Positions 44,684 to 62,560 of a DNA stretch of 62,560 nucleotides are shown here, piece after piece. A model generated the notes under the pieces. That model made no database searches. It had not been told where the DNA came from and saw nothing but the letters and a program-made list of their open reading frames with translations. This DNA comes from Rhodospirillaceae bacterium (GTDB lineage: Bacteria; Pseudomonadota; Alphaproteobacteria; Rhodospirillales; JABHCV01). A program made the position numbers and the translations under genes. Location of the stretch: the NCBI GenBank assembly GCA_013204045.1, contig JABMOQ010000011.1, positions 1 through 62,560 of the forward strand, read 5' to 3'. The first letter of the stretch is position 1, and every line of letters starts with the position of its first letter.

Positions 44684-45313
44684 CTATTTCGATCGCCCCT
44701 TAATTCCTTGCAGCGTTTTTTCGATGGCCTGCTGGGCGATCTTGAGGTCGCTTGTCGATCCGGCCATGAAGACACGGCCTGTGGCCCCCATCATCTGGAT
44801 ATCGACGATGGTGGTTTCAGGAGCCACTTTTTCGGCTTCGTTAGCGGCGACGGCGGCAAACAGGGCAGGGGCCATCTCGTAAAGCAGCATGGATTGGCCG
44901 GGTAGGATCATTGAAGCGTTGCGCATGCGGTTGAGGATAATGGCGTGCTGGTCGGCAATATCCTCAATAATATCCGTATAGAGTGTTGACGGTGCAAGTT
45001 GATCGGTGGCCTTGGCGTTGATCCCTTGTAGAATTGCTTCACCGGCGGCGTCCAGTTCATCACGGTCCGTCGAATGAAGTTCCAGCAAGCCGAATTGGCG
45101 TTCCGTAAACAGGATGCCTGGCTCCATATCCGGCGCCGCCTTCAGCGCCAGATCAACAACCCGGTGAATGGAAAGCGCCGGCGCCACCTCGATGATCAGG
45201 CTGTTATCGCCCTGCATGGGGGGGTAGCCACGCGCCCGTACAGGCGTCGACATGTACGCTGAGAATTGAGGTTGCAAATCCTCAATAGGAAGATAGACAC
45301 GAAGTTCGGTCAT
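44684..45313 (-). CDS. BMC-T shell protein (tandem BMC domains), copy 1
   Basis: Trimer-forming bacterial microcompartment shell protein, 209 aa, with two BMC domains (about residues 1-100 and 105-205). The second domain ends with VDIQMMGATGRVFMAGSTSDL and KIAQQAIEKTL, typical of the fold. It resembles the other BMC-T gene of this locus in layout and in EVAPxL and ERQFGxLExHSxD segments. In the mycobacterial RMM compartment two such proteins (MSM0271, MSM0275) form double-ringed or strip-forming edge pieces. It is the last gene of the shell operon, 86 bp after the BMC-H gene. Confidence 0.88.
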   Translation of the reverse strand: MTELRVYLPIEDLQPQFSAYMSTPVRARGYPPMQGDNSLIIEVAPALSIHRVVDLALKAAPDMEPGILFTERQFGLLELHSTDRDELDAAGEAILQGINAKATDQLAPSTLYTDIIEDIADQHAIILNRMRNASMILPGQSMLLYEMAPALFAAVAANEAEKVAPETTIVDIQMMGATGRVFMAGSTSDLKIAQQAIEKTLQGIKGRSK

Positions 45314-45399: not shown

Positions 45400-45681
45400 T
45401 TATTTAGTTGTCGACGTGAAGTGTTTGCTTAGGTCCTGATGGGGCCGCGGAATAACGTGGACCGAAACAAGTTCGCCAACCTGGCCAGCGGTTTCTGCAC
45501 CCGCCTCGGTCGCCGCCTTTACCGCGCCAACGTCGCCCGATATAACAACCGCGATCAGGCCATCGCCGACTTCTTCACGTTTGACGATGGTGACGTTGGC
45601 AGCTTTAACCATAGCGTCAGCAGCCGCGAGTGCGGCAACGTAGCCTTTTGTTTCGATCATGCCCAGTGCTTGATTAGCCAT
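45400..45681 (-). CDS. BMC-H hexameric microcompartment shell protein
   Basis: Single-domain BMC shell protein, 93 aa, that aligns without gaps to Pdu[43 protein letters not shown] and [10 protein letters not shown] are canonical. The central-pore loop reads EEVGDGL where PduA has EKIGSGL. Pore residue Ser40 is therefore Asp40 and Lys37 is Glu37, an acidic pore. It should form the facets of the compartment. A strong GAGGAGAAG site precedes the ATG, as expected for the most abundant shell part. Confidence 0.96.
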
Positions 45682-45732: not shown

Positions 45733-45978
45733 TCAGGTGTGTTCGTCTATGGAACCTATGATCAAGGCGTCAATTGGTGCCTTGATTCCTTCAAATTGCC
45801 CGGCGGCGACAGAACCTTGAGTGATCAAAACTTCTTCGCCGTCTCCACATCCCAGGGGATCAAACGCGATAACCCGGGAACCGCCATCAATCTCTACCTC
45901 CAGCAAAGCGCCTTGAGGCAGCGAGTCGGTTCTTTTTGTCGACCAGATACGACCAATAACCCTTCCTCTAATCATCAC
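45733..45978 (-). CDS. BMC-P pentameric vertex protein (EutN/CcmL family)
   Basis: Small beta-barrel vertex protein, 81 aa, the usual size. Family marks are MIRGRVIGRIWSTKRTDSL at the N-terminus, the EVEID strand and the GEEVLITQGSVA loop near the pore, and IDALIIGSID at the end. Five copies would cap each vertex of the polyhedral shell. Its ATG overlaps the stop of the upstream gene by 4 bp. Confidence 0.93.
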   Translation of the reverse strand: MMIRGRVIGRIWSTKRTDSLPQGALLEVEIDGGSRVIAFDPLGCGDGEEVLITQGSVAAGQFEGIKAPIDALIIGSIDEHT

Positions 45979-46427
45979 TTCATCCTTTCAATCGAAATTC
46001 CGCGCTGGCGCAACCTGTCTCGCGCCAGTGGCGTTGTGTGGGCCTGCTTGCCGAGCAGCAACGTTTTAGTCTGCATTGGAAGCTGGTCTACGATGCGTTC
46101 TGACAGCAGCCCACTATCAAATCGTTCCGTATTTCCACCGGCAACATGCGTGCCGGTGGCAGGAGCCATGGCCCGAGTGCCCCCCGGGCCGGCCTCAAGA
46201 CGAAAAACGATTTTACCCTCCATCAAGTCGCGGCGCTCTTCCGGCTTTGCGGCCATGGAAAGAATACGCCTTACGAACGCCTGAAGATCGGAGTCGTTAG
46301 ATATTGTCACCTGCTCTTCCTTGACCGACGCCGAAGCGGCGGCATTTCCTTTGCTTGCCTTAATACGGGCAAGTTCCTCGCCTAGGATTTCGCGGACAAG
46401 TGCGGCAATCATGGGATCGGCCATCAT
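45975..46427 (-). CDS. BMC-associated protein of unknown function with encapsulation-like N-terminus
   Basis: About 150 aa; start ATG at 46427, with GGGAG 5 bases upstream, preferred to a GTG at 46433. The first helix, DPMIAALVREILGEELARI, has the amphipathic pattern of BMC encapsulation peptides and is followed by an Ala/Ser-rich linker. The middle (about residues 40-110) has no motif I recognise. The C-terminus reads LGKQAHTTPLARDRLRQRGI, a motif I associate with other BMC accessory proteins. In the M. smegmatis RMM locus an uncharacterised gene (MSMEG_0274) holds the same place between BMC-P and BMC-T. Function unknown. Confidence 0.8.
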   Translation of the reverse strand: MMADPMIAALVREILGEELARIKASKGNAAASASVKEEQVTISNDSDLQAFVRRILSMAAKPEERRDLMEGKIVFRLEAGPGGTRAMAPATGTHVAGGNTERFDSGLLSERIVDQLPMQTKTLLLGKQAHTTPLARDRLRQRGISIERMK

Positions 46428-46429
46428 CG

Positions 46430-47047
46430 TCACTCCCGTTCCGCGCCAAGTAACTGGAGCGCATTTTCGGCTGCATTTCGCGCGTTCGGAATATCCGCTT
46501 CGCTACCGGCCAGATAAACCCGTCCGTTAGCCCCAATCATGCGAAAATCAATGACCTTGATATTCGCCGCCTTTTCAGCCTCGTTAGCGGCCAGAATTGC
46601 ATAGGAGGCGGGCTGCATCTCAAGCGTATAGAGGGTGTCGCCGGCAATAATCATTGAGCCCAGCTTGTTTCGGTTGATCAAAAAGGCATGTTGATGATCG
46701 ATATTGGTAATCACCTTGGAGCCGAGAATTTTAGGACGGGTCGCGTCGCCAGCGGATGCACCAAGAGCATCCATGACCGCCGATGCTGACGCCTTAACCG
46801 CAGATGTGTCCCGGGAATGAAATTCAAGATATCCAAACTGCCTTTCGACGACAAGAATACCGGCCTTTACACCTGTGTGCTTGATCGCAATATCGGTTAA
46901 CGCTTCAATATCAAGGCCCGGTGCAACCTCGATAATTTGAGCAGCCATGTTGGCACGCGGCAGGGAGCCTCGCATCCATGAGCTCATGTAGCACATCGTT
47001 TGCGGCTGAAGCTGGTCGATAAAGATTGATGATCGTAATTCGGCCAA
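46430..47047 (-). CDS. BMC-T shell protein (tandem BMC domains), copy 2
   Basis: Second BMC-T protein, 205 aa, TTG start with AAGGA 8 bases upstream. Two BMC domains are joined near residue 105; the C-terminal one contains VIDFRMIGANGRVYLAGS. Sequence divergence from copy 1 is large (N-terminal loop SSWMRGSLPRANM versus STPVRARGYPPMQGD), so the two should form separate homotrimers with different positions in the shell, as proposed for the RMM pair. It lies 3 bp after the aldehyde dehydrogenase gene. Confidence 0.9.
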   Translation of the reverse strand: MAELRSSIFIDQLQPQTMCYMSSWMRGSLPRANMAAQIIEVAPGLDIEALTDIAIKHTGVKAGILVVERQFGYLEFHSRDTSAVKASASAVMDALGASAGDATRPKILGSKVITNIDHQHAFLINRNKLGSMIIAGDTLYTLEMQPASYAILAANEAEKAANIKVIDFRMIGANGRVYLAGSEADIPNARNAAENALQLLGAERE

Positions 47048-47050
47048 GGC

Positions 47051-48628
47051 TTAATCCTTCAAAATATCGCGAAGTTCTTCCGCAATGATCAGGCGAATTT
47101 GTTCGCGCAAATCATCACGGGCCGCAGGCGCCGCGGCACCTGCTGCGGTTGATGTGACTGAGACTGGCCGTCCTTGGCCGGGAACACCATCGGCAGGCGC
47201 TTTGGGCAGGGGGCCAGGATGTTTCAATTGCCCTATGTCATCTGCGCTCAAAGCAGGGCCGTTCTTATGCCAAGCGATTCGAGTCCAGTTAACCAGATGC
47301 TGCGGGCCAACGTTCTCGCCGACGGACGAGCGACCAAAGAAACCGGTGCCGATGGTAAACGTCGGTGCCAGATTGGTAACAAAACCCGCTGCCCCCTGGC
47401 TGCAGGGCGCATTGACAACGACCCGGTAGGCTTCGACGGCGCTGGCATAATCTGTGATCGTCTGGTTGTCGTTGGAATGGATAGCCGCGGAATGACCGGC
47501 ACCTGACAGGCGAAGCAAGGCACGAGCCTGTTTCATGGCTTGATCGACACTATTAGCGACGTAGTAGCCCAGTACGGGGCAGAGTTTTTCGCGGGACAGT
47601 TCTTCACCAACACCAATCATGCTGATCGGTGCGACAAGTATTTTCGTATTCCGGTTGACCTTGAAGCCGGCCTGTTCGGCAATCCAGGTGGCATCACGGC
47701 CCAGAGACTCGACGTTGAAGCCACGCTCGTGGAATAAATATTTGCGTAGCGAATCGACTTCGCCTTCCTTGCAAATATGTGCGCCGGCCCGCGTTAATTC
47801 ACGCTCCAGAGAAGCTGCCACTTCGCTCACCGTAATCAGAACTGATTCATTAGTGCAAAGAACTGAATTATCAAACGACTTGCTTTCGACGATATATCCG
47901 GCGGCGGCCTTTAGGTCGGCGGTGGCGTCAACAAATACCGGTGCATTGCCGGGGCCGACTCCGATCGCCGGATTTGAGGACGAATAAGCCGCGCGGACCA
48001 TGGGTGCGCCGCCGGTCGCCAGAATAACATCCGTTTTATCTGATTTCATAAACTCGTCGACCAGTGGCAAACTGATTTCTTCCAGAACCTGGATAACGCC
48101 CTCTGGTGCGCCTGCCGACATGGCGGCCTCGGCAAGTGTTTTGGCCGCGTCTATACAGCACTTTTGAGCCGCCGGATGGGGGCTGATGACAATTGCGTTG
48201 CGTGTCATCAGCGCCGACAGGACCTTGAAATAAAGGGTCGATATGGGATTGGTCGACGGAACAAGAGCAAATATAACACCTGCCGGTTTGGGTATTTCAA
48301 TCACGCCCGTCCGCTCATCCATGTTTGGGTCGACAAAATTCCAGTCACGGTAGTAATCAACGAGGGGAATGCTGCTCAGCTGGTTCTTTATTGTTTTGTG
48401 TTCCGCGACGCCGAATCCCGTTTCACGAACAGCCCACTCGCCATACTCGGCAGCTTTCGCGTGGGCCGCCTGGGCCACGGCGTCGGCAATGGCCATGGTC
48501 TTCGCCCGGTCGTAGCGATGAAAAACCTGGGAGGCCCAACGGGCACGCTCCAATACCATTTCTGCGCGGGCCTGCATGGCGACCTGCGTCTTGCTGATAT
48601 CGACAAGTTGGGCAATTTGCGGGTCCAT
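47051..48628 (-). CDS. CoA-acylating aldehyde dehydrogenase, BMC-encapsulated (PduP/EutE-like)
   Basis: NAD- and CoA-dependent aldehyde dehydrogenase, 525 aa, converting propionaldehyde or acetaldehyde to acyl-CoA inside the compartment. The nucleophile C258 lies in SFDNSVLCTNE, and the NAD-loop GVGPGNAPVFVD and VPSTNPISTLYFK are present. The catalytic body ends near residue 460. It is followed by a Pro/Ala/Gly linker (about residues 470-504) and a terminal amphipathic helix LREQIRLIIAEELRDIL, a classical C-terminal encapsulation peptide. It overlaps the upstream aminotransferase by one base (TGATG). Confidence 0.94.
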   Translation of the reverse strand: MDPQIAQLVDISKTQVAMQARAEMVLERARWASQVFHRYDRAKTMAIADAVAQAAHAKAAEYGEWAVRETGFGVAEHKTIKNQLSSIPLVDYYRDWNFVDPNMDERTGVIEIPKPAGVIFALVPSTNPISTLYFKVLSALMTRNAIVISPHPAAQKCCIDAAKTLAEAAMSAGAPEGVIQVLEEISLPLVDEFMKSDKTDVILATGGAPMVRAAYSSSNPAIGVGPGNAPVFVDATADLKAAAGYIVESKSFDNSVLCTNESVLITVSEVAASLERELTRAGAHICKEGEVDSLRKYLFHERGFNVESLGRDATWIAEQAGFKVNRNTKILVAPISMIGVGEELSREKLCPVLGYYVANSVDQAMKQARALLRLSGAGHSAAIHSNDNQTITDYASAVEAYRVVVNAPCSQGAAGFVTNLAPTFTIGTGFFGRSSVGENVGPQHLVNWTRIAWHKNGPALSADDIGQLKHPGPLPKAPADGVPGQGRPVSVTSTAAGAAAPAARDDLREQIRLIIAEELRDILKD

Positions 48629-49899
48629 CAGGATGCCTTGCGCCCGCGTTCGTTCAACATATCTTCTCGCGCTTGGCCAATTGAAATTTCCATCCGGCGC
48701 AACACGTCTTCTGTCAGGCTCTGTGTCATCAAAATACCCAGCTTGAATTGCAACACGCGTGGATCAAGGGTCGAGAAAATAGCCCACACGCCGTTTTCAT
48801 AAATGCGCCGCATCACCAGTTTGGCCCCTTCCGGGTGATTGAATTCAAGGCCCATGATCACGCCGTTTTGCCGAATGCCGCTAAAGAAGTCAGGGTACAT
48901 CGCCTGAATTTCATCGAGCCCGGCACGGGCAAAGTCGGCGACATAGCGAACCATGGAGGCGACTTCCGGTCGTTGCGTGATTTCAAGAACCTTTAGGGCA
49001 ACAATACAGCCAAGTTCGGCGCCACCGGCGGTTGACATATGAGCGAAGCCATCCTGCTTCAGCCAGGCGCCGGCGCGTTCGTTTACAACGCAGCACGAAA
49101 TTGGGTACATGCCCCCGGTAATCCCTTTGCCGATCACCATGATGTCCGGAATGACGCCGTATTTGTTAACGCCCCACATTTCACCCGTCCGCATCAGCCC
49201 TGTCTGTACCTCGTCGGCTATGTAGAGGGCGTCATAACGCTCGCAAAGCTGTTTGACGGAGGGTAAATATCCCTCGTGTGGCATGGGAAATCCGTAGGTC
49301 GCCGGAATGGTTTCCATAATGACGGCGGCTACATCGCGGCCCTTGAGGGCGTCTTCCATTGCGGTCAGGTCGTTGAAGGGAACCTGGATGAATTCCCCCA
49401 GCGTATCTTCCGACAGAAAAGTCTTTGAAAACCGCTCGTCGCCGGTTTTCAGCGCCAACCCGGAATGGCCGTGATAAGCCTTGATGATCGATACGATTTT
49501 GCGCTTCTGGGTCGCGTGACGGGCCGACTTAAGGGCCAGTTCGATCGCTTCTGCGCCTCCCGCGCCGTAGATCGTATATTGAAGCCCCTCCGGCGTGCAT
49601 TCAGCCAGTTCTTCGGCCAGCGCCGTGCGGGCGAGAGCCGGAAAATGGTGGTTGCCCATGTCGAAGCGTTTGGCACCAGCATTCAGAACTTCAATCAGTT
49701 CCGGGTTCCGATGTCCCAGGTTATAGGTCCCGCCATTAAGGTGGAGGTCGATCAGGCGCCGGCCATCCATGTCGTAGAAGCAATATCCCTCGCGCTTGTC
49801 GATAACCAGATCGATACCGGCATCTGACCAGAACTCCGTTTTATTGGGGTTCCAGAAGGTTTTCGAGGCTTCGAGAAAATCGAGTTTTGCCTGACTCAT
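48628..49899 (-). CDS. Class III aminotransferase-fold phospholyase of the BMC locus
   Basis: PLP enzyme of 423 aa with Asp229 (LYIADEVQTG) and Schiff-base K258 (VIGKGITGGMYPIS). In RMM loci and in the ethanolamine-phosphate phospholyase branch of this family such enzymes split an amino-alcohol phosphate into aldehyde, ammonia and phosphate instead of transaminating. Here the adjacent kinase gene and the aldehyde dehydrogenase make 1-amino-2-propanol phosphate (giving propionaldehyde) the best guess. Phosphoethanolamine (giving acetaldehyde) is the alternative. It is the first gene of the seven-gene shell operon. Confidence 0.85.
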   Translation of the reverse strand: MSQAKLDFLEASKTFWNPNKTEFWSDAGIDLVIDKREGYCFYDMDGRRLIDLHLNGGTYNLGHRNPELIEVLNAGAKRFDMGNHHFPALARTALAEELAECTPEGLQYTIYGAGGAEAIELALKSARHATQKRKIVSIIKAYHGHSGLALKTGDERFSKTFLSEDTLGEFIQVPFNDLTAMEDALKGRDVAAVIMETIPATYGFPMPHEGYLPSVKQLCERYDALYIADEVQTGLMRTGEMWGVNKYGVIPDIMVIGKGITGGMYPISCCVVNERAGAWLKQDGFAHMSTAGGAELGCIVALKVLEITQRPEVASMVRYVADFARAGLDEIQAMYPDFFSGIRQNGVIMGLEFNHPEGAKLVMRRIYENGVWAIFSTLDPRVLQFKLGILMTQSLTEDVLRRMEISIGQAREDMLNERGRKAS

Positions 49900-51162: not shown

Positions 51163-52176
51163 ATGTCTGATTTTGAACATTTGCCATACGAGGAGCAACT
51201 CCACCGATTACGGGACTTGGCCTCTCAAGCCCTTAGCCATTACAACCTGCCTTCTGGCGCTGAAGTCACCCTCATTAATCTTTCGGAAAATGCCACGTAT
51301 CGCATTGATGATCCTGTTGCCGGCGGGCGCTGGGCGTTGCGTGTTCACCGGGAAGGCTATCACAGCAAGGCCGCTATTGCTTCGGAACTGGCATGGTTGA
51401 CGGCTTTGCGAGAGGGCGGCTCGGTCGTAACGCCGACGGCCATTGCAGGCAAAGACGGAGAACTGATCCAGGTTGTCAGCCACCCTGGCGTGCCGAACCA
51501 GCGCCATGTTGTTTTATTCGCCTGGGAAAATGGCGAGGAACCGGACGAACAGCAACATGACCTTAGGCGGCCCTTTGAAGTGCTGGGAGAAATTACCGCA
51601 CGCATGCACATGCATGTCCGCAGCTGGCAAAAACCACCTTTTTTTGAACGCCTTATATGGGATTTCGACACCAGCCTGGGTGATAATCCGCATTGGGGAA
51701 AATGGCGTAACGGCATGGGATTGACGCCGGAAATTGAGGTTATTTTTGGCAAGACGGTTGACTTGATCGGTCGCCGACTGGAGCGGTTCGGGAAATCCCC
51801 CGAACGTTTCGGACTGATTCACTGTGATATGCGTCTTGCCAACCTGCTGATGGATGGAGACGTCACCAAGGTTATCGATTTTGACGACAGTGGTTTCAGT
51901 TGGTTGCTCTATGATTGCGCAACCACCGTATCGTTCTTTGAAGACCGGCCCGAAGTCCCCGAACTGCTGGAATCCTGGGTTCGCGGGTATCGAAAGGTAA
52001 TTGACCTGCCAGAGGAGGATGTGGCGGAAATCCCGACCTTCGTGATGTTGCGCCGATTGCTCCTGGTAGCCTGGATTGGCTCGCATTCAGAGACTGATCT
52101 GGCCCAATCCATGGGGGTTGAATACACCCGGGGAACCGTGCCTTTGTGCGAGGATTACCTGTCCCGCTTTGGCTGA
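51163..52176 (+). CDS. APH-fold kinase, probable amino-alcohol kinase of the BMC pathway
   Basis: Aminoglycoside-phosphotransferase/choline-kinase fold, 337 aa. The catalytic loop is LIHCDMRLANLL (H220, D222, N227), the metal-binding aspartate is in VIDFDDSG (D239-D241), and the nucleotide-binding part starts ENATYRID. In the mycobacterial RMM locus the homologous-family kinase phosphorylates (S)-1-amino-2-propanol. The same role is proposed here, feeding the phospholyase. True aminoglycoside resistance is unlikely from this context. Ethanolamine or homoserine kinase activity is an alternative. It lies 143 bp after the DeoR gene. Confidence 0.85.
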   Translation: MSDFEHLPYEEQLHRLRDLASQALSHYNLPSGAEVTLINLSENATYRIDDPVAGGRWALRVHREGYHSKAAIASELAWLTALREGGSVVTPTAIAGKDGELIQVVSHPGVPNQRHVVLFAWENGEEPDEQQHDLRRPFEVLGEITARMHMHVRSWQKPPFFERLIWDFDTSLGDNPHWGKWRNGMGLTPEIEVIFGKTVDLIGRRLERFGKSPERFGLIHCDMRLANLLMDGDVTKVIDFDDSGFSWLLYDCATTVSFFEDRPEVPELLESWVRGYRKVIDLPEEDVAEIPTFVMLRRLLLVAWIGSHSETDLAQSMGVEYTRGTVPLCEDYLSRFG

Positions 52177-52264
52177 TATATCGCCCGCTTGATACTTTGG
52201 GCATCCTCATGCAATGATCTCTGCCAATCGCGCTATCAAAGAACGCGACAGCAGGGATAGATAT

Positions 52265-53335
52265 ATGGGAGAGATTTGGCAATCCGCAAAATTTGTTCCG
52301 CCGAGTTCCACGAATGACCCTTCGTCTCCGGTCATTCTGGCGTCGGCGGCGACCGGTATTGTTGGTCATATTTGCGCCCAGCATGGCGATATAGACGGCA
52401 TTTTTGGAAATTCAGGGCTGGCGCCTTCAATGACAGGCGAGCCAACCTTGCAGTTGAGGCTTTCTTCATTTTGCCGCCTGTTCGAGGAATCTGCACGGCA
52501 GACAGAAAACCCGAATTTTGGCCTGTGGTTCGGCAATCAGTTCAAACCCCACGATCTTGGAATGTGGGGGTACGTTGGCGTGACGTCATCTACCTTGGGC
52601 GCGGCACTGGAAAACCTGGTTAATTATTTTCCGTATCATCAGGAAAAATCGATGTTTCAACTGAAATCCCGCAAAGACGGGATGATGATGCTGGAGTATC
52701 AGATATTGGCGCCCGATATTGTCGAAAGGCGGCAGGATGCCGAGCTGTCACTTGGCATGTTTCTCAACGTTTTCCGTGAGTGTCTTGGCAATGAATGGAC
52801 CCCCGAAGAAGTTTTCTTCGAGCATCCCAAGCCGGAGGCCGCAGAGGAGCATGAAATAGCATTTGGGGCGCCGACCTATTTCTCGCAGCCAACAAATGCA
52901 CTGGTGTTCCGTCCGGAAACTCTGGAACACAAGATGCCGAGGCGCGACCTCAGGCTGATGACCATGATGCAAACTTGCCTCGAGCGGCTCGGTTCCGGTC
53001 GCAATGGATGTGAATCACTGATCGACCGTGTTCGTTCAGTCATCCGAATGAAATTACCGGAGGGCTGCCCATCTCTGGAAGTGGTCGGCAACGCGTTACA
53101 GTTATCATCGGTTAGTATCCAGCGAGAACTTTCTCTTGCCGGCCTGACATATAAAGAGCTCATCCAGGCGACACGCAGCGACCTGGCTCATGCCTACCTG
53201 AAGCAACGCCATTTGCCGTTATCGGAGATTGCTTTCTTGCTTGGCTATTCAGAACTTTCTGCGTTTTCACGCGCCGTTCGCCGATGGACAGGCGAGAGCC
53301 CAAGGGCCATACGAAACCGCCTGCTTCACGGCTAA
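52265..53335 (+). CDS. AraC-family transcriptional regulator (OruR-like N-terminal domain)
   Basis: AraC/XylS activator of about 356 aa. The C-terminal double helix-turn-helix ends LPLSEIAFLLGYSELSAFS and RAVRRWTGESPRAIRN. The N-terminal part (about residues 30-210) resembles the arabinose-binding-type domain of OruR/ArgR-like regulators (for example NFGLWFGNQFKPHDLGMWGY). The ATG at 52265 has AGGGA upstream and is preferred; an in-frame ATG at 52214 would add 17 residues. It faces the transporter-dehydrogenase operon and may activate it or the dehydratase. Confidence 0.87.
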   Translation: MGEIWQSAKFVPPSSTNDPSSPVILASAATGIVGHICAQHGDIDGIFGNSGLAPSMTGEPTLQLRLSSFCRLFEESARQTENPNFGLWFGNQFKPHDLGMWGYVGVTSSTLGAALENLVNYFPYHQEKSMFQLKSRKDGMMMLEYQILAPDIVERRQDAELSLGMFLNVFRECLGNEWTPEEVFFEHPKPEAAEEHEIAFGAPTYFSQPTNALVFRPETLEHKMPRRDLRLMTMMQTCLERLGSGRNGCESLIDRVRSVIRMKLPEGCPSLEVVGNALQLSSVSIQRELSLAGLTYKELIQATRSDLAHAYLKQRHLPLSEIAFLLGYSELSAFSRAVRRWTGESPRAIRNRLLHG

Positions 53336-53351: not shown

Positions 53352-54116
53352 CTATTCAAGAGCTTCCAGGGATTCCGGCAATATCTGTCCGCCATCGACA
53401 ATGATTGTCTGGCCGGTGATGTAATTTGCCTCTTTCGATGCCAGGAACAAGGCCGCATTGCCGATATCTTCGACGACACCAATTTTTTTAAGCGGAATGG
53501 ATGCTGCCATGGTCGCGATATAATCTGCGCCAAGCTCGTCCAGGCCTTCGGTACCGATGTTGCCTGGCATCACCGCATTCATGGTGATGTTATATTTGGC
53601 AAGTTCGATGCATGCCGTTCGCAAAAAGCCAAGCTGACCTGATTTTGATGCCCCATAATGGGACCATCCAGGAAAGCCCGTTACCGGTCCCGTAATGGAA
53701 GACGTCAACACGACTCGCCCCTGGTCGGATTTTTTCAGCGCCGGCAGGCACGCCTTCACGCTAAGGAAATTGCCTTTCAGGTTGGTATTCATCACCAGAT
53801 CCCACTCGGCCGGCTCCATTTTTTCAATGGTGGTCTGTGGAAAGATGCCCGCATTGGCACACAGGATATCGAGGCCGCCATGTCGTTCCACGGCGGCGGC
53901 AGCCATTGCCTGGCTCTGTTTCCAGTCAGATACGTCGGCTGAAAACGCGCTGGCCCCATTGCCTATCTCTTTGGCGCAGGATTCAGCATCAGACAACGTG
54001 CGCCCTACAACCAGGACTTTGGCGCCCTGATTTGCAAATACACGTGCAATTCCTTTTCCAATCCCCTTGCTTCCGCCTGTCACGATAACGGAACGTCCAC
54101 TGATGGATGTCAACAT
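53352..54116 (-). CDS. Short-chain dehydrogenase, candidate 1-amino-2-propanol/aminoacetone dehydrogenase
   Basis: Classical SDR of 254 aa. The NAD(P) motif is TGGSKGIGKGIA (residues 13-24), CANAG follows at 86-90, and the catalytic triad is Ser139/140 in LTSSITG, Tyr154 and Lys158 in WSHYGASK. The C-terminus IVDGGQILPESLEALE is typical. RMM loci carry an SDR that interconverts aminoacetone and 1-amino-2-propanol. Here the gene follows the Pot permease by 10 bp with a strong GGAGG site, so import and first oxidation/reduction are co-expressed. No encapsulation peptide is visible. Confidence 0.88.
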   Translation of the reverse strand: MLTSISGRSVIVTGGSKGIGKGIARVFANQGAKVLVVGRTLSDAESCAKEIGNGASAFSADVSDWKQSQAMAAAAVERHGGLDILCANAGIFPQTTIEKMEPAEWDLVMNTNLKGNFLSVKACLPALKKSDQGRVVLTSSITGPVTGFPGWSHYGASKSGQLGFLRTACIELAKYNITMNAVMPGNIGTEGLDELGADYIATMAASIPLKKIGVVEDIGNAALFLASKEANYITGQTIIVDGGQILPESLEALE

Positions 54117-54957: not shown

Positions 54958-55827
54958 TTACCGCCGACCGATAATCTGATCTAGATCAATTCTACGAAAC
55001 AATAAAAAGACGACGACACCTGAGAGTCCAATCAACATAACGGAAAGAACGGAACCCTTGGGCCAATTCTGGGCGAAGGTGAATGCGCTTTCAATATCAT
55101 CGGCGATCATGACCACGGCTTGCCCACCAAGAATTTTTGCCTCCGCAAGTGAGCCGAGCGACAGAATAAACGTCAAAATTCCGCCAATCATAATGCCGGG
55201 CATAGAGAGCGGCAATTCGACTTCCCAGAATATTTCCCATCGGGAAGCGCCAAGATCTGATGCCGCATCTTTCAGGCTTTCAGGCACCATGGAAATGCCA
55301 GAGACAAGGGGAAACAGCATGAACGGAAGGTAAACGTAAACGAGGCCAAGAACGATTGACGGAACCGTATACAATAATCCGGAAGCCGAAACATCGAACA
55401 GATATTTGAGCGAACCATCGAGAATACCGTTCTTAAGCAGGATCAAGACCCAACCAAAAAGACGAATGTTTTCCGAAATCAGCAAGGGCAGAATGATAAG
55501 CGCCGTAACAAGATTGGCCCAAGGCCCAAAAATTTTTGCCATCCCATAAGCCATCGGGTAGCAGACCAGAAATAATATAACCACGGCTGTGGATGCCAGG
55601 AAAAGAGACCAGAAAAATGAGATATAATAGCTATCAGCAACGACTGAAACGTAATTTTCTAGGCTCGGGACTTGAAGCAGAGAGAACGTATGAGCCGGCA
55701 TGAAACTGTAGCCAATCACCATCGCTAATGGGCCGGCAAAGCCAATAAGCAAAAACACGGAAGCGGGGATGGCCGCTAGCCTGCCCGGATTTATCCGCCA
55801 TATACTTGATTTATTACCCGTAGCCAT
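54958..55827 (-). CDS. potB: Polyamine-type ABC permease PotB-like (system 3, BMC-linked)
   Basis: Permease of 289 aa, six membrane segments, EAA loop KDAASDLGASRWEIFWEVELP with the SLGSLAEAKILGGQ segment after it. It starts 5 bp after potA and is tightly packed in the operon. Confidence 0.92.
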   Translation of the reverse strand: MATGNKSSIWRINPGRLAAIPASVFLLIGFAGPLAMVIGYSFMPAHTFSLLQVPSLENYVSVVADSYYISFFWSLFLASTAVVILFLVCYPMAYGMAKIFGPWANLVTALIILPLLISENIRLFGWVLILLKNGILDGSLKYLFDVSASGLLYTVPSIVLGLVYVYLPFMLFPLVSGISMVPESLKDAASDLGASRWEIFWEVELPLSMPGIMIGGILTFILSLGSLAEAKILGGQAVVMIADDIESAFTFAQNWPKGSVLSVMLIGLSGVVVFLLFRRIDLDQIIGRR

Positions 55828-55832
55828 GGAAT

Positions 55833-56906
55833 TTATTCACTCACCAAGATTGAATCTTCCGGTCGCCAGCCAAGCGCAACGGTATCCCCAAAGGTTCCGT
55901 CGAAAACCTCGTCCTGCAAACGTTCGACCAGCCATTGGTCACCAGAAGGCGAGCGTATCTGGTATTGCATGCGCGAGCCTAGCGCATAGTCATTAAAAAA
56001 TTTCCCATGCATGATATTTGGCAGTCCGGACGCAGCCGGGCCCAACTTCATAACTTCGGGCCGCACGATCAGGTAACCCCGGCTGAATTGATCGGGCATA
56101 GACTTAACTTCGAATGTGCCTTCTCCTTTAATGTCGCGCACGGTCATATCTCCGGCGGCTTCAACTTCAAGCGTGTTTACCTCGCCCATAAACTGGGCGA
56201 CAAACTTGTTTATAGGTTTGTTATAAATTTCATTGGGGGTGCCGATCTGGACAAGAGCGCCGTCCTTCATGATGCCTATACGGTCGGACATCACCATTGC
56301 TTCTTCCAACGAGTGTGTAATATAGACAAATGTTTTTCCGGTCTCCCGATGAATATCCTTAAGTTCTTTTTCAAGTGCTTTTCGCAGCCTGAAATCGAGT
56401 GCCGAAAGTGGCTCGTCGAAGAATAAAATTTCCGGGTCAAACGCCAAGGCCCTGGCAAGCGCGACACGCTGGCGCTCTCCGCCTGAACATTGGTTGACAC
56501 CCTTGTCATAAAAATCTAGCGGAAGGTGTAGCTGTTCAAGCAGGGCCATTGCCCGTTCACGCCTAACCGCAGGCGCGACTTTTGCAATCTTCAAGGGGAA
56601 TTCGATATTTTCGCCAACGTTGCGATGAGGGAATAGGGCTAAATTCTGAAACACCATGCACGTCGGGCGTTTATTGGCGGGAACATCGTTAAGCCGCGTT
56701 CCCTTAAGTATGATATCGCCGCTGGTGGGCAGGTCCATACCCACCAGCAAGCGAATCATCGTTGTCTTTCCCGACCCCGAAGGGCCGACAAGGGTGAAAA
56801 ACTCTCCTTCGGCTATCTGTAAATCAACCTCGCTTACAGCGGTAAATTCACCGAACTTCTTTGTGAGTCCTTTTAGCTCAAGAAACGTCTCAGCCTTGTC
56901 TTTCAT
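55833..56906 (-). CDS. potA: Polyamine-type ABC ATP-binding protein (system 3, BMC-linked)
   Basis: ABC ATPase of 357 aa. Walker A is GPSGSGKTTMIRLL, signature [16 protein letters not shown] (Cys before SGGE is unusual but tolerated), Walker [14 protein letters not shown]-loop YITHSLEEAM, with a C-terminal TOBE domain. It lies 47 bp after potD, the usual gap behind a binding-protein gene. Confidence 0.93.
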   Translation of the reverse strand: MKDKAETFLELKGLTKKFGEFTAVSEVDLQIAEGEFFTLVGPSGSGKTTMIRLLVGMDLPTSGDIILKGTRLNDVPANKRPTCMVFQNLALFPHRNVGENIEFPLKIAKVAPAVRRERAMALLEQLHLPLDFYDKGVNQCSGGERQRVALARALAFDPEILFFDEPLSALDFRLRKALEKELKDIHRETGKTFVYITHSLEEAMVMSDRIGIMKDGALVQIGTPNEIYNKPINKFVAQFMGEVNTLEVEAAGDMTVRDIKGEGTFEVKSMPDQFSRGYLIVRPEVMKLGPAASGLPNIMHGKFFNDYALGSRMQYQIRSPSGDQWLVERLQDEVFDGTFGDTVALGWRPEDSILVSE

Positions 56907-56953: not shown

Positions 56954-58108
56954 TCAGCTTTCGCGCTCGCGCTTGGCTGCGGAATAGATATCGTACATTT
57001 CCGCATAATCCGGGTTGATGTCGTAATCGGTTGAATTGGACATTTCTTCTTCAAGGGTATCCCACTGGATAGCGTCCAGCTCTTCCTTGTTGAATTGTGC
57101 CAATACCTTCGACGACCCCATCTGGGTTACCGGATTGTAGGTACCTTCAGCGAATGCCACTTTCTTCGAGACATCAGCCCGTTGCACGTAGGCCAGGAAT
57201 TCTTCAGCAAGTGGTGACGGATCGGGATTATTGACGACCGAAGTCAGCTCGATCCAGACGATGCCGCCCTTGCCGTTCATCGGACCCGACTTAGGCGTGA
57301 TGCCACGGACCTGCTTGGCGCCATCGAAGCGAGCCGGAGACGCCGTGTAGGTGCCGCCAGTGAAGTAGGCATCAATTTCACCATTGATGAGGGCCAGATT
57401 CATCTGAACCAGATCATCCGTAAGCAGTTTAGCGCCATTGAATATCTGCTTACACACCTTGGCATAGGCTGCAACTTCCGCCTTCGAGTGCTTCTTGAAA
57501 GGATCGACGCCGGCAGTAACGCACATGTGATAAATGTTCCAGTTATCGTATGTCAGAATGCCGTACTTGCCCTTCATCTTGGGGTCCAGGAACACATTGA
57601 AGCCTTGGTCTTCGCCCATGGCCCGCGAGATTTTGTTGGTGTTGACGACGAAGTTGAAGGGGCCGAACCGCTGGGTCATGCCGAGCAGATCTTTGCCTGC
57701 CTTGTCCATGGCCCACGAATAAGGCGGGTGAAACTCCGACATCATGTCTTTGTACATGGGCTCGAACCGTTCGCGCGAAATCGGCTTGATGAGTCCTTCC
57801 GGATACATCATTTCCCGGGCCCACGGATTGTTAAGGTTGATCAAATCCCAGACTTTTGTTTCACCGGCCCTGAGGCGGTTAACGGCATCAGGATCAGAAG
57901 TCAGGCCTTCGGCACGAACTTTAGCGCCAAACTCGCGGCGGAATGGGTCAAGAACATCATCTGAGTTGTAACCTTCCCAACAATAAATGTTGAGTTCCTT
58001 ATCTCGCGCGGCGTGGGCAAGTCGGGGTAATGTTCCGGCTGCAGCAGCGGCGGCCCATACACCTGTTTGCTGCAAGAAGTTTCGACGATTAATGCGATTT
58101 TTAAACAT
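56954..58108 (-). CDS. potD: Tat-exported PotD-like binding protein (system 3, BMC-linked)
   Basis: Binding protein of 384 aa. The leader has a twin-arginine motif INRRNFLQ (Arg8-Arg9), a long alanine-rich core and a cleavage site AHA near residues 31-33, indicating Tat export; the other two PotD proteins of this window use Sec. The mature protein starts ELNIYCWEGYNSDDVLDPF, the polyamine-binding family hallmark. The ligand is probably the amine that feeds the compartment (inference). GGGAG precedes the start. The 256-bp region 58109-58364 upstream is AT-rich; no motif recognised. Confidence 0.92.
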   Translation of the reverse strand: MFKNRINRRNFLQQTGVWAAAAAAGTLPRLAHAARDKELNIYCWEGYNSDDVLDPFRREFGAKVRAEGLTSDPDAVNRLRAGETKVWDLINLNNPWAREMMYPEGLIKPISRERFEPMYKDMMSEFHPPYSWAMDKAGKDLLGMTQRFGPFNFVVNTNKISRAMGEDQGFNVFLDPKMKGKYGILTYDNWNIYHMCVTAGVDPFKKHSKAEVAAYAKVCKQIFNGAKLLTDDLVQMNLALINGEIDAYFTGGTYTASPARFDGAKQVRGITPKSGPMNGKGGIVWIELTSVVNNPDPSPLAEEFLAYVQRADVSKKVAFAEGTYNPVTQMGSSKVLAQFNKEELDAIQWDTLEEEMSNSTDYDINPDYAEMYDIYSAAKRERES

Positions 58109-58364: not shown

Positions 58365-59060
58365 TCAATTCAGCCCCATCATGACCTTAAGTTCCGCCGA
58401 TGACATGACGTGGCAGTAGATCATGTTAAGGATTTCAAGCTCTTTTTCGTGCAATTCCAACGAACCTGCTGCGCAACAATCCTCGAGGACAATGACGCTA
58501 AAGCTTTCATCGGCCAAACTTCGTACGGTCGAAGAGATGCATTGGTCCGTAAAGATGCCACAACAGATAACATTTTTGATGCCTATATTATTGAGGATCA
58601 GCCTCAAATTCGTTCCCGTAAGGGCTGAATCGGTGGTCTTTGTGACACAAATTTCGTCCCCCTGCGGGGCCAGAGTGTCGACCATCTGAGACGGTTGATC
58701 GTTCTTGGGCAGCAGCAAATTGTTCCAACCGGGCATTTTTTGGCTCAGCGACCTGTCGCGGCCATCTGCAGTATGGCAGGCAATACGGGCAAACAGGCAC
58801 TCGATATCATGACTGCGAAACAAATTGAGGAGCCCCTGGGTGCGGGGAATGACTTGCTGATGCATGCGTTCATGAAAGGGGTTCCAGGCATCGAAGCGGC
58901 TTTTTTCTTCATCGCTGAGGCTGTCACGGTCCGAACGTTGCAGATACGTGTTCTGTATGTCGATAACCAGCAGCGCTGTTTCCTCCGGCTTCAGAACCAA
59001 GTCTTCGGGTTCCGGGGCCCCGTCGTAATAGATCGAGCGATAATCCGTTTTCCAATTCAC
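58365..59060 (-). CDS. Isochorismatase-like cysteine hydrolase
   Basis: Cysteine hydrolase of 231 aa with the triad Asp in LVIDIQNTY, Lys in CVTKTTDSALTG and Cys in IFTDQCISSTVRSL. The cis-peptide region preceding the Cys is normal. This family contains nicotinamidases, ureidoacrylate and carbamoyl-amine hydrolases; isochorismate itself is unlikely. It follows the diol dehydratase small subunit by 36 bp, so it may release an amine or alcohol from an amide precursor for the pathway. Substrate unknown. Confidence 0.88.
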   Translation of the reverse strand: MNWKTDYRSIYYDGAPEPEDLVLKPEETALLVIDIQNTYLQRSDRDSLSDEEKSRFDAWNPFHERMHQQVIPRTQGLLNLFRSHDIECLFARIACHTADGRDRSLSQKMPGWNNLLLPKNDQPSQMVDTLAPQGDEICVTKTTDSALTGTNLRLILNNIGIKNVICCGIFTDQCISSTVRSLADESFSVIVLEDCCAAGSLELHEKELEILNMIYCHVMSSAELKVMMGLN

Positions 59061-59096: not shown

Positions 59097-59525
59097 TCAG
59101 TATCTGGCGGCAAACAGGCCACGGCGATCATAAACATCGGCCGCTTCTTCTATAAAGGCAGCCAAAATTTCTGCCTGGAATTCATCGCGCAAGCGCTTTG
59201 CGGCGGCAATAATTGCTTGTTTATCGCTTGCTCGGCCCGGGCGTAGGATCTCGTATATTTCCATGATAATCGGTTGCGGAATACGGGCCATTTCGGATGC
59301 CCGCTCGAAATTCCGGGCCAGCTCATTGCGGCCAACTGAACTGGCGATTTCAGCCTGCTGGAGAAGAGCTTGCGGCGTGATCCGCAGATCCTCCATCGTG
59401 ACATCGCCACTGACCAGGGCGTCGAGGGTCAGTTCCTCCAGTGGCTTGCCGCGTGCGCCCCTGACCAGATCGGGGCGTTTTTCGGCAAGGGGATAGTCGG
59501 CAGCGGAAAGTGGTTTGCGGGTCAT
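59097..59525 (-). CDS. B12-dependent diol dehydratase small subunit (PduE-like)
   Basis: Small subunit of propanediol/glycerol dehydratase, 142 aa. It matches the body of PduE closely: DYPLAEKRPDLVR, DLRITPQALLQQAEIA, GRNELARNFERASE and IYEILRP. Compared with Salmonella PduE (about 170 aa) it lacks the N-terminal 30 or so residues that serve as a compartment-targeting helix. It begins right at the conserved core. Its ATG overlaps the large-subunit stop by 4 bp, ensuring balanced production. Confidence 0.92.
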   Translation of the reverse strand: MTRKPLSAADYPLAEKRPDLVRGARGKPLEELTLDALVSGDVTMEDLRITPQALLQQAEIASSVGRNELARNFERASEMARIPQPIIMEIYEILRPGRASDKQAIIAAAKRLRDEFQAEILAAFIEEAADVYDRRGLFAARY

Positions 59526-61804
59526 GGCATATCCTCGCTGAATGTTACCTCGACAGCTTCCGGGCTTGCGCCGTCTTCTGTCATTTCTGTCTCGATGGCA
59601 TAGGTTAAAGCTACGCGCGCATGAAAACGTGCGCCAAGTGCCTCGCCATGGGTCGGAACCACAATAGGGTCGGGCATATTGCCCGTGGCATAAATTGCCG
59701 CGTTTCGCCCCAAACCACGGTAATGCTCGAGAGTGGTAATCGGCGCATTAGAAAACAATTCCAGATTGTTATGGGGCAGCCGTTCTTTTTGATGAATGAC
59801 GGCGGTGCCCTTGGCCTGCAAACCAATGCCAATACCTGAGCCGGAAAGTTTTGCCGCCGTCAGGCCCAGGAAAGACGTGTCCGCCGTATGCCGGCAGCGG
59901 ATGATCCGCATGGTAGCGTTTTCAGAGGCAATGCCCGCCTGTATCTCGGCAAGAACGCGGCTTAACGGGTGTCCGGCCAGGGTTCGAAAAAGTTTGCCCC
60001 CAAATCCGGGGCTCAACGCGACCAGCACTTCGCCAGGATCCGTTCCGGCTTCTGCTGGCCCAATCGTGTGGTAGTTGATGCGCCGGGATTCATCGGGCTC
60101 ATAGATTGCTTCTGCACGCAACACGCCCTCGCGGTCAAGAACATCGCGAATAGCAGCCAGTTCCTGTCGTCGCTCCTCGCTGAGGCGGTAGCCGGTTCCC
60201 GGGCCCTGATATGAATTGGGATCGTTAATAGCGCTGATGATCCGGCGATCACGGACGATGGCCGAGGTCTGAAGATAGTCGCCCGAGACGCGAAGCTTGA
60301 CGAGAAAAAGAAGATTTTCTGCTTCTTCGACGAACCCTCCCTTGTGAAGCGATCGAATGACATCAACCACAGTGATCCCGCGATCCTTGATCTGCTCGCT
60401 GATCCCGGCCACCGCGCGTGGCAAGTAGCTTTCTGTATCGTCCGATCCGGATGCCACGGCGACCGATTGTTTCATGGTTTCGTTCGCCGTAGATAACCCA
60501 AGGTCTTCGTGCACGAAAGCCAGCGCTTCAATAGCCTGTTTGCGTAACGAAAACGCCGTAGCCTCTTCTACGGAAGTAAGGCCTCCGTCGGCCTCAAAAT
60601 CCCGTTGCAAGACTAGAAAGTCTTCCATCTCTTCACCGTTAAAGGATGATGGATTAAAAGAATTGTCGTACTTCAGAATGCTTCCGAAGCCTGAACAGAT
60701 TAAATCCGAACCCGCTATCAGGAGTGGTAGGATTTTAGCACCGACGCGGATCTCTGATTCCGAATGCCGCGCATCGTTGCCGGAGGCACATTCCAGATCA
60801 AGCCATACGGCCAGAAGGTTCTCCGCCATCAGTTCGCGAACCCCGCCGGGCATGGTCGAAGCAAGCGGTGCACCATCTATGCCACCGTTCTGGGTTCCCT
60901 GCGATCCCATACCACGCTGCACACAAAGGCATCGTGCTTCAAGATAGAGCAAAGATTTTGACTCGTGAAAGCCCATCAGCAATTCAGAAGCCGCGCCCGA
61001 CGTACAACGCATCTTGACGCCGCGCGAAGCATAAGCCGCCGCCAGCCAGGTTTTAGACCAGGGTGTGTCGTCGCCATCAACGAAGGCGCTCTCGGTGCCA
61101 TAGACGGACACGGTTTCCGCGTACGATGTGAACCCGGCCATGCCGATTTCCAGCTCTTCCGCTTCCTCGCTCGAGCACTGAAACAGGGTGCCTGCACGCC
61201 CCACAGAAGAGCCGACGCAACAAGCCAATGCATTTGACCATGCATTGCGTGAAACCCGCATTGTCGTCTCGATTTCGTCAAAACCAAAGGCAACGGCAAT
61301 GGCAGCATCGGCGCTGAGTTGCAGCGGATCATCCTTGGCATTGGTCACATGGGCCTGATTTCCGGGGGTTTGGCGGGCTCGCATTTTTGAGTAAGAAAAG
61401 CTGATTTCCATGGCGTTAAGCTGGGCAACGACTTCGGCGAGTTTTGCCGGGGTCATGCCCCTGGCCAGGCGCGTTAGTTGCGTCCGCGGAACGTTCATAT
61501 CAACCAGCATCCGCGCCAGCTCCGGCGACGGCATTGCCATTGCTTCTTCTGCGACTTCAATATCGAGATGATGACGGGCAATAAACGCGTCGATCATGTC
61601 AAAGTCCTTGGCGGCGACTCCGTCCATCGACGCGATCTCACCGTCGATGATTGAGATGCCCGGTTGGGGGTCTTGAGCACCTGAAAATGCAGAAAACCCG
61701 TTTTCTGGATCTTCAACGGCGAACTGATCGAGCCTGAGCGGCCGATCATCCCAGTCAGAAAACCGCCGCCAGCGATTGGCACCGTATGAATATGAGTCGC
61801 TCAT
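59522..61804 (-). CDS. B12-dependent diol/glycerol dehydratase, fused large and medium subunits
   Basis: Adenosylcobalamin-dependent dehydratase of 760 aa converting 1,2-propanediol (or glycerol) to aldehyde. Residues about 1-560 match PduC and 590-760 match PduD (LSGSGIGIGLQAKGTAVIHQ), fused through a short linker. All seven active-site and metal residues of the Klebsiella enzyme are kept with a +9 offset: Gln150, His152, Glu179, Glu230, Gln305, Asp344, Ser371. The fusion removes the usual N-terminal targeting helix of PduD. GGGCAGG lies upstream of the ATG. No reactivase (DdrA/DdrB) is seen in the window. Confidence 0.95.
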   Translation of the reverse strand: MSDSYSYGANRWRRFSDWDDRPLRLDQFAVEDPENGFSAFSGAQDPQPGISIIDGEIASMDGVAAKDFDMIDAFIARHHLDIEVAEEAMAMPSPELARMLVDMNVPRTQLTRLARGMTPAKLAEVVAQLNAMEISFSYSKMRARQTPGNQAHVTNAKDDPLQLSADAAIAVAFGFDEIETTMRVSRNAWSNALACCVGSSVGRAGTLFQCSSEEAEELEIGMAGFTSYAETVSVYGTESAFVDGDDTPWSKTWLAAAYASRGVKMRCTSGAASELLMGFHESKSLLYLEARCLCVQRGMGSQGTQNGGIDGAPLASTMPGGVRELMAENLLAVWLDLECASGNDARHSESEIRVGAKILPLLIAGSDLICSGFGSILKYDNSFNPSSFNGEEMEDFLVLQRDFEADGGLTSVEEATAFSLRKQAIEALAFVHEDLGLSTANETMKQSVAVASGSDDTESYLPRAVAGISEQIKDRGITVVDVIRSLHKGGFVEEAENLLFLVKLRVSGDYLQTSAIVRDRRIISAINDPNSYQGPGTGYRLSEERRQELAAIRDVLDREGVLRAEAIYEPDESRRINYHTIGPAEAGTDPGEVLVALSPGFGGKLFRTLAGHPLSRVLAEIQAGIASENATMRIIRCRHTADTSFLGLTAAKLSGSGIGIGLQAKGTAVIHQKERLPHNNLELFSNAPITTLEHYRGLGRNAAIYATGNMPDPIVVPTHGEALGARFHARVALTYAIETEMTEDGASPEAVEVTFSEDMP

Positions 61805-62042: not shown

Positions 62043-62560
62043 CTGAACTTACGGATCAAGCCGAAGAAACGGCTGTATCGGGAAAGGCCAGAACCGCTTG
62101 CTATGCCGCAAACGATCAACGACATGTGGTCGGTGGATTTTATGCACGATCAACTTGGGGACGGTCGTAGCTTCAGGACCTTCAATGTCATTGATGACTT
62201 CAATCGTGAAGGGCTTGGGATCGAGGTTGATTTTTCTCTGCCCGCGACCCGTGTTATCCGGGCGCTGGATCAGATCATCGAGTGGCGAGGAGCTCCTTGC
62301 ACTATTCGGTGCGATAATGGCCCGGAATATATCAGTGAGTTGCTGGCGACCTGGGCCGAGAAACGAGGGATAGGGCTGCGCTTTATCCAGCCTGGGAAGC
62401 CACAGCAAAATGCCTATGTGGAACGCTATAACAGGACAGTCAGGTATGACTGGCTGAACCAATATAATTTTAAAACAAATGAGGAGGTACAGGAAGCAGC
62501 CACAGCATGGCTCTGGACATAAAACAACGAAAGACCCAACATGGCCATCGGCGGCAGAAC
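62043..62560 (+). pseudogene. IS3-family transposase (OrfB) relic, broken
   Basis: DDE transposase fragment with the catalytic triad in [15 protein letters not shown] and [11 protein letters not shown] and E are exactly 35 residues apart. The frame can be followed back to [18 protein letters not shown] from about 62043, but further upstream it degenerates and meets a TAG at 62004-62006. An in-frame TAA at 62520-62522 interrupts the conserved WLWTYNxxRPN end; the protein would otherwise continue NNERPNMAIGGRT to the window edge. Both lesions mark an inactive element. Confidence 0.85.

Follow-up and report, generated by a model that had tools for sequence, protein, structure and literature searches.

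A fused B12-dependent dehydratase linked to an RMM2-like amino-alcohol gene set and probably re-specified for diols with a polar or amine group at C3

How does a diol dehydratase that bears no apparent targeting peptide come to be encoded together with a microcompartment shell, and on which substrate does it act? The question arises in a Rhodospirillaceae bacterium, on a contig of 62,560 bases (contig C41 of genome G000; hereafter the window, i.e. the whole stretch of DNA analysed; the genome measures 2.68 Mb in 177 contigs and is 98.7% complete), where a B12-dependent diol/glycerol dehydratase with fused large and medium subunits accompanies the genes of an RMM-type microcompartment. Judging from residue signature and gene linkage, the arrangement is RMM2-like and the dehydratase has probably acquired a new specificity, for a diol that bears a polar or amine group at C3. 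In its full form this reading, to which we lend roughly even confidence, takes the enzyme to be an adenosylcobalamin-dependent member of a distinct, mainly alphaproteobacterial subfamily of the RMM2-like amino-alcohol set, with a C3-polar or cationic 1,2-diol probably preferred over 1,2-propanediol. The feature is for the most part of a known kind: the fused gene and the missing reactivase (PMC4777399, PMC7674605), and the association of RMM genes with a diol dehydratase, including the option of a bifunctional compartment (PMC4207490), are already in print in the accessible text of these papers. What is new is evidence for the dehydratase as a re-specified member of the amino-alcohol set, sometimes encoded in one run with the shell.

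The dehydratase is encoded by two genes.

59522..61804, minus strand: fused large and medium subunit of a B12-dependent diol/glycerol dehydratase, 760 amino acids (single open reading frame, Pfam)
59097..59525, minus strand: dehydratase small subunit, 142 amino acids, without an N-terminal extension (Pfam, alignment)

The longer open reading frame carries a Dehydratase_LU domain (PF02286) at residues 11-558 (E 1.3e-209) and a Dehydratase_MU domain (PF02288) at residues 614-711 (E 1e-23), in agreement with the original prediction, made from the sequence alone, that the large and medium subunits form one 760-residue chain. It is the sole Dehydratase_LU match in its own genome, and it overlaps by 4 bases the gene of the small subunit (PF02287 over the cut-off, E 1.6e-46). 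Residues Q150, H152, E179, E230, Q305, D344 and S371 align with Klebsiella Q141, H143, E170, E221, Q296, D335 and S362, which we take to be the seven ligands of substrate and potassium, and the constant offset of +9 that had been predicted was recovered at all seven. Five of them (Q141, H143, E170, Q296 and S362) are listed in the accessible part of a published mutant table, and D335 is treated in that of PMC9850924. The same ligands are kept in 86 of 87 aligned rows, the remaining row (L076) being truncated at its chosen start; the column of E179 is partly pre-selected, since the search pattern FDEIETTM spans it. These rows comprise the window, 80 loci (the best 80 of 159 from a genome scan, with Mesorhizobium and Hyphomicrobium records among them) and six further stretches (L083-L088, of which L083, L085 and L087 duplicate L018, L021 and L071, L087 being the same stretch as L071), and leave out second copies at 64-65% identity (G014, G048) and one at 44% (G038). 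The accompanying expectation that the enzyme should be active is upheld in part, for the seven catalytic ligands are intact and the C3-side residues of the substrate pocket appear altered; we infer an active enzyme.

Cofactor supply and sink are represented in the genome by a cobalamin adenosyltransferase and two MM_CoA_mutase matches. A DDR-type reactivase (PF08841) over the cut-off was found neither in this genome nor in any of 49 genomes with the fused gene (one weak match lay below the cut-off; the same search was positive in 2 of 14 controls), among them three (G018, G031, G040) that carry a member of a more distant fused clade described below. The 49 genomes derive from 50 of the 80 loci, with L052 left out. 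Taken by itself, the missing reactivase could fit a decayed or non-functional remnant retained by hitch-hiking, which we regard as most improbable: the seven ligands are conserved, the best matches are free of internal stops in 49/49 genomes, and the small subunit is conserved in all 44 of the loci (out of 80) with flanks of 9.5 kb or more on each side (hereafter well-flanked). Moreover, the absence of a reactivation factor is an already reported trait of fused enzymes: in its accessible text, PMC4777399 places the fused gene in Mesorhizobium, Mycobacterium and Hyphomicrobium, without the factor and with a ‘slightly different’ active site, and the fusion is restated in that of PMC7674605, citing Liu 2010.

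The evidence that carries the proposed change of substrate lies in the pocket. Positions 304, 308, 309, 310, 345 and 382 read T, G, I, D, A and S in 84 or 85 of the 87 rows, while the Klebsiella residues at the same six positions are L, A, V, S, Q and M; no pattern of the relative search covers 304-311, 345 or 382. The canonical C3-side trio S301/Q336/M373 is replaced (S301 by D310, Q336 by A345, M373 by S382) in 85/87 rows, the exceptions for D310 being the truncated L076 and the distant L088, which has serine. D310 also occurs in two plasmid copies (63-64% identity). A sister clade of fused enzymes (44-46% identity) keeps S310 in 6/6 loci (L092-L095, L107, L108), none of which has, over the roughly 6-10 kb around it, a kinase, an aminotransferase, a shell gene or a short-chain dehydrogenase/reductase (SDR) exceeding 28% identity, and three of the six sit in genomes that also hold a D310 copy. 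Among 394 genomes drawn from the family of G010, both newly found close copies carry D310 (L105 with aminotransferase, aldehyde dehydrogenase and shell; L106 with SDR, kinase and shell), and both newly found distant ones carry S310 with none of the amine or shell genes. Since the D310 clade is accompanied by amine genes and the S310 clade is not, the residue tracks the amine context. The accessible text of PMC9850924 describes a hydrogen bond between S301 and the 3-OH of glycerol, and a changed preference for diol chain length in S301A/Q336A. From S301D, Q336A and M373S we argue that the preferred substrate is probably a C3-polar or cationic 1,2-diol; 1,2-propanediol, which the original prediction had assumed, is weakened as a substrate, both by the substitutions and by the retention of Ser301 in the fused clade without amine genes. 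Neither the D310/A345/S382 signature nor an amino-alcohol link was found in the accessible literature on fused enzymes.

The second line of evidence is the company that the dehydratase keeps, which in the window consists of the following genes.

58365..59060, minus strand: isochorismatase-family hydrolase, starting 36 bases past the small subunit
56954-58108, minus strand: solute-binding protein of an ABC transporter, following the hydrolase after a 256-base gap
55833-56906, minus strand: ABC transporter ATPase
54958-55827 and 54127-54954, minus strand: ABC transporter permeases
53352..54116, minus strand: SDR, end of the minus-strand run (top solved relatives include 6ci8/6ci9, which we take to be the M. 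smegmatis 1-amino-2-propanol dehydrogenase)
52214..53335, plus strand: AraC-family regulator
51163..52176, plus strand: APH-family kinase (nearest solved relative 6ef6, presumably the M. smegmatis (S)-1-amino-2-propanol kinase)
48628..49899, minus strand: class-III pyridoxal-phosphate (PLP) enzyme, aminotransferase or phospho-lyase
47051..48628, minus strand: acylating-type aldehyde dehydrogenase (ALDH) with a C-terminal encapsulation-peptide-like helix
46430..47047, minus strand: BMC-T shell protein, CcmP-like (NCBIfam under the cut-off, Pfam BMC over it)
45975..46433, minus strand: 152-residue protein with an encapsulation-peptide-like N-terminus (no Pfam or NCBIfam match)
45733..45978, minus strand: BMC-P vertex protein (EutN_CcmL)
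45400..45681, minus strand: BMC-H shell protein
44684..45313, minus strand: second CcmP-like BMC-T (NCBIfam under the cut-off, no Pfam match)

The minus-strand run from 61804 to 53352 thus comprises eight genes (dehydratase, small subunit, hydrolase, solute-binding protein, ATPase, two permeases and SDR). The locus is an RMM gene set, and its SDR, APH kinase, class-III PLP enzyme, acylating ALDH, shell and diol dehydratase together have the content of an RMM2 locus. Neighbourhoods of the relatives were mapped by tblastn of the window proteins with chosen identity thresholds. Within the 44 well-flanked loci the small subunit was found in 44, the SDR in 38, the kinase in 33, the aminotransferase in 31 and the hydrolase or a class-I amidotransferase in 34, and at least one of SDR, kinase and aminotransferase is present in 42. 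A shell was seen in 16 of the 44, which is a lower bound, since shells lie up to 14.8 kb away and the flanks covered 10 kb. The association also occurs without the shell: of the 49 genomes, 36 have BMC matches and 13 have none, and 9 of these 13 retain SDR, kinase and an aminotransferase beside the dehydratase (in 4 of the 9 the aminotransferase is of the window type). On two Rhizobiaceae plasmids, too, a single run encodes dehydratase, small subunit, UgpC, SDR, phosphotransferase and aminotransferase, and the 32 kb shown contain no annotated shell gene; no actinobacterial copy was found among the 30 of 92 plasmid records listed. The simplest reading is that dehydratase, SDR, kinase and PLP enzyme serve one substrate family, joined by a shell in some lineages. 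Transporters differ between loci (ABC of the SBP_bac_8 type, amino-acid permease, sugar-type ABC). The solved relatives listed for the hydrolase include putative amidases, RutB and biuret hydrolase, and downstream of the dehydratase in L019-L022, L024, L045, L048 and L063 it is accompanied or substituted by a class-I glutamine-amidotransferase-like gene.

A narrower proposal, which we put forward tentatively and hold to be rather improbable as a whole, is that the fused dehydratases with Asp310 form a new specificity class acting on an amine-bearing diol (e.g. 3-amino-1,2-propanediol to 3-aminopropanal), as a second RMM2 signature enzyme in one pathway with SDR, kinase and PLP enzyme, any shell that is present handling the reactive amino-aldehyde. 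The original prediction had instead envisaged a two-input compartment fed by both 1,2-propanediol and 1-amino-2-propanol. In detail, propanal would arise from 1,2-propanediol through the dehydratase and from 1-amino-2-propanol through the kinase/PLP pair, and both streams would pass through the encapsulated acylating ALDH to propionyl-CoA. This option, printed as such in the accessible text of PMC4207490, draws on the conserved seven ligands, on the presence of one ALDH and one shell together with MM_CoA_mutase in the genome, and on the growth on propylene glycol of Paracoccus yeei TT13, a strain reported with RMM2 (accessible text of PMC8156839). Set against it are D310/A345/S382 in the amine-linked clade, with Ser310 kept in the sister clade, and the 9/13 shell-less genomes in which dehydratase, SDR, kinase and aminotransferase stay together; the notion of two independent inputs is weakened accordingly, and we give it a doubtful but still appreciable chance.

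Several observations weigh against the re-specified amino-alcohol enzyme that we prefer. An SDR and kinase of the 1-amino-2-propanol type are expected to yield propanal without any dehydratase. The linkage is incomplete: 2 of the 44 well-flanked loci lack SDR, kinase and aminotransferase altogether, and 4 of the 13 shell-less genomes have no kinase and no aminotransferase in the stretch covered (L024, L074 and L080 show the SDR only of the three, and L009, on a short contig, the small subunit only). Among the 9 shell-less genomes that have all three genes, 5 use a different class-III enzyme (about 27% identical), and the plasmid-borne enzymes are not close orthologues of those of the window (identities of 29% for the SDR, 24% for the kinase and 25% for the aminotransferase). 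In the pocket, whose residues were placed by sequence alignment without a structure of this enzyme, the plasmid copies carry T345/K346, and Asp310 could suit glycerol too. Once adenosylcobalamin is bound, it is preferentially D335 that contacts the C3 hydroxyl in place of S301 (accessible text of PMC9850924). The subfamily-specific positions (77 full-length fused rows and two plasmid rows) are not unusually clustered (6 in 12 residues, a density reached by 335 of 2000 random draws), are weakly enriched at 299-311 (p 0.01) and number 13 near the seven ligands against 9.0 expected (p 0.10); an active-site hot spot of subfamily changes was rejected as not significant overall. Finally, the strain P. 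yeei TT13, with its reported RMM2, grows on 1,2-propanediol (accessible text of PMC8156839), though PMC5773746, having found no pdu operon, infers for it a route from propylene glycol to pyruvate.

As to the shell, the original prediction had placed the dehydratase next to the compartment, which is accurate in so far as it shares the strand of BMC-H and less so in distance, the two being 13.8 kb apart with the hydrolase, transporter, SDR, AraC, kinase, PLP-enzyme and ALDH genes between them. The genome survey that it had called for did show fused dehydratase genes beside RMM shells: BMC-H lies on the dehydratase contig in 28/49 genomes, at 1.4-14.8 kb (i.e. within 15 kb), and on another contig in 8. 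In an even draw of 385 genomes across the class (at most 3 candidates per genome scored at E <= 1e-150, so that divergent RMM copies escape), a close fused gene (at least 69% identity) was present in 6 genomes, with a distant copy in a seventh, an RMM-type ALDH in 8 and BMC over the cut-off in 14. All 6 genomes with the close gene have ALDH and shell (Fisher p 6e-12 by genome for 6, 8 and both in 6 of 385; p 3e-6 by genus for 3, 5 and both in 3 of 277). Three of the six (G214, G086 and G352, corresponding to L018, L021 and L071) are also among the 49, and the two sets of counts are not independent. Recurrent absence of the dehydratase from other copies of the locus, named beforehand as evidence against a functional tie, was seen in 2 of the 8 RMM-type genomes of the draw (G212, G225) and not in 6; a chance neighbour was ruled out by the class draw together with the genome counts. 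Genomes with and without a shell are intermixed on the tree. In L027 (Fodinicurvata fenggangensis), L071, L078 (Roseovarius litorisediminis) and L081 a single strand carries, in this order, permeases, SDR, kinase, PLP enzyme, ALDH, shell, hydrolase, dehydratase and small subunit, and the last shell gene shares 4 bases with the hydrolase. L072 has a BMC-T match that stops about 11 bases before the dehydratase match, on the same strand.

Whether the enzyme is itself carried into the shell can be approached through its termini. For the medium-subunit part the alignment begins at residue 51 of the diol dehydratase beta subunit and at residue 19 of that of glycerol dehydratase, and for the small subunit at residue 39 of the diol dehydratase gamma subunit and residue 1 of its glycerol dehydratase counterpart. 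From these starts it follows that neither subunit has a Pdu-type N-terminal extension, as in glycerol dehydratase and in agreement with the original prediction that the N-terminal helices usual on PduD and PduE are both missing; alignment starts and motif search alike gave no Pdu-type pairing of extension and targeting helix on medium and small subunit. A short amphipathic motif is present in 17/18 ALDH C-termini and, with rows taken by similarity, in 7/8 N-termini of the 152-residue protein. When rows of the latter were taken by position (between BMC-T and BMC-P; 11 readable rows, 4 others dropped), the strict motif was found in 5/11, the other 6 having a similar helix. The motif was absent from the dehydratase (0/86), its small subunit (0/83), the hydrolase (0/56), the SDR (0/52), the kinase (0/42) and the aminotransferase (0/29), so that only ALDH and the 152-residue protein share it among the eight families; as it was defined on these two, only the negatives count as a test, and the rows include repeat stretches and two plasmid loci. 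A hidden targeting peptide on the dehydratase or its small subunit was rejected on the same counts. The hydrophobic moment gave no separation in 11 loci, dehydratase N-termini (0.36-0.66) overlapping ALDH C-termini (0.42-0.70). Apart from ALDH, the enzymes of the locus as a rule carry no such motif, and the dehydratase is not peculiar in this respect. The 152-residue protein could be a cargo adaptor; it has a recurrent C-terminal end of the type TPLARDxxRxxGIxIxR.

These data also bear on another possibility, namely that the dehydratase is confined to the cytoplasm, belongs to an adjacent operon and has its regulator or its source of substrate in common with the RMM genes without feeding the shell. 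In the accessible text of Axen 2014 (PMC4207490), RMM2 denotes RMM loci with diol dehydratase genes, and this is the preferred explanation, use by the compartment being disfavoured by the opposite strand and bifunctionality given as the alternative. The motif-free rows (0/86), the separate gene run of the window at 13.8 kb from BMC-H and the 13/49 genomes without any BMC match are in line with it. The opposite-strand argument fails, however, in L027, L071, L078, L081 and L072, where the dehydratase follows the shell genes directly on the same strand, and aminotransferase, SDR and kinase equally have no motif; we consider this explanation unlikely. Under the re-specified reading, we infer that the enzyme would carry out a radical dehydration at its Q/H/E/E/Q/D/S site, yielding an aldehyde, with 3-amino-1,2-propanediol as the candidate substrate that we put first. 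In genomes with a shell, the acylating ALDH with its targeting-type helix would take up this aldehyde. Since it has no such helix, the dehydratase would act at or outside the shell, or enter through contact with another protein.

The aminoacetone utilization microcompartment of M. smegmatis was reportedly described by Mallette and Kimber (cited in PMC8007038 and PMC8156839); PMC8007038 also lists papers on the M. smegmatis dehydrogenase and kinase among its references. That system (RMM1) resembles the window locus in SDR, kinase, aminotransferase, ALDH and shell (list after Axen 2014) and differs in having no dehydratase genes in the accessible text of PMC4207490. The likeness to RMM2, judged here by gene content, consists in a set of RMM genes with those of a diol dehydratase close by; according to the same text RMM2 has a permease and GntR where the window has an ABC transporter and AraC, and opposite strands where the five relatives named above have the dehydratase on the same strand directly after the shell. 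Klebsiella PduCDE and DhaB share catalytic ligands, domain order and small subunit with the present enzyme, yet have separate subunits, a reactivase and S, Q and M where D, A and S stand here, whereas the fused dhaB1-dhaB2 glycerol dehydratase of Mesorhizobium, Mycobacterium and Hyphomicrobium is likewise a single chain without reactivation factor (accessible text of PMC4777399). Three findings make the use of the dehydratase by RMM2, left undecided by Axen 2014, directly testable: runs in which shell and dehydratase genes are co-directional, gene sets that lack the shell, and the division of the two fused clades by Asp or Ser. If the amine reading is true, it would define a new substrate class for B12 dehydratases and explain why the dehydratase and amino-alcohol genes travel together.

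At the contig end, an open reading frame for an integrase-core (rve) transposase (62103-62522, plus strand) precedes the dehydratase operon, whose upstream side lies beyond view. Past the shell genes the window encodes an amidase (42372-43793, minus strand), and a further open reading frame (41067-42191) groups with ABC ATPases.

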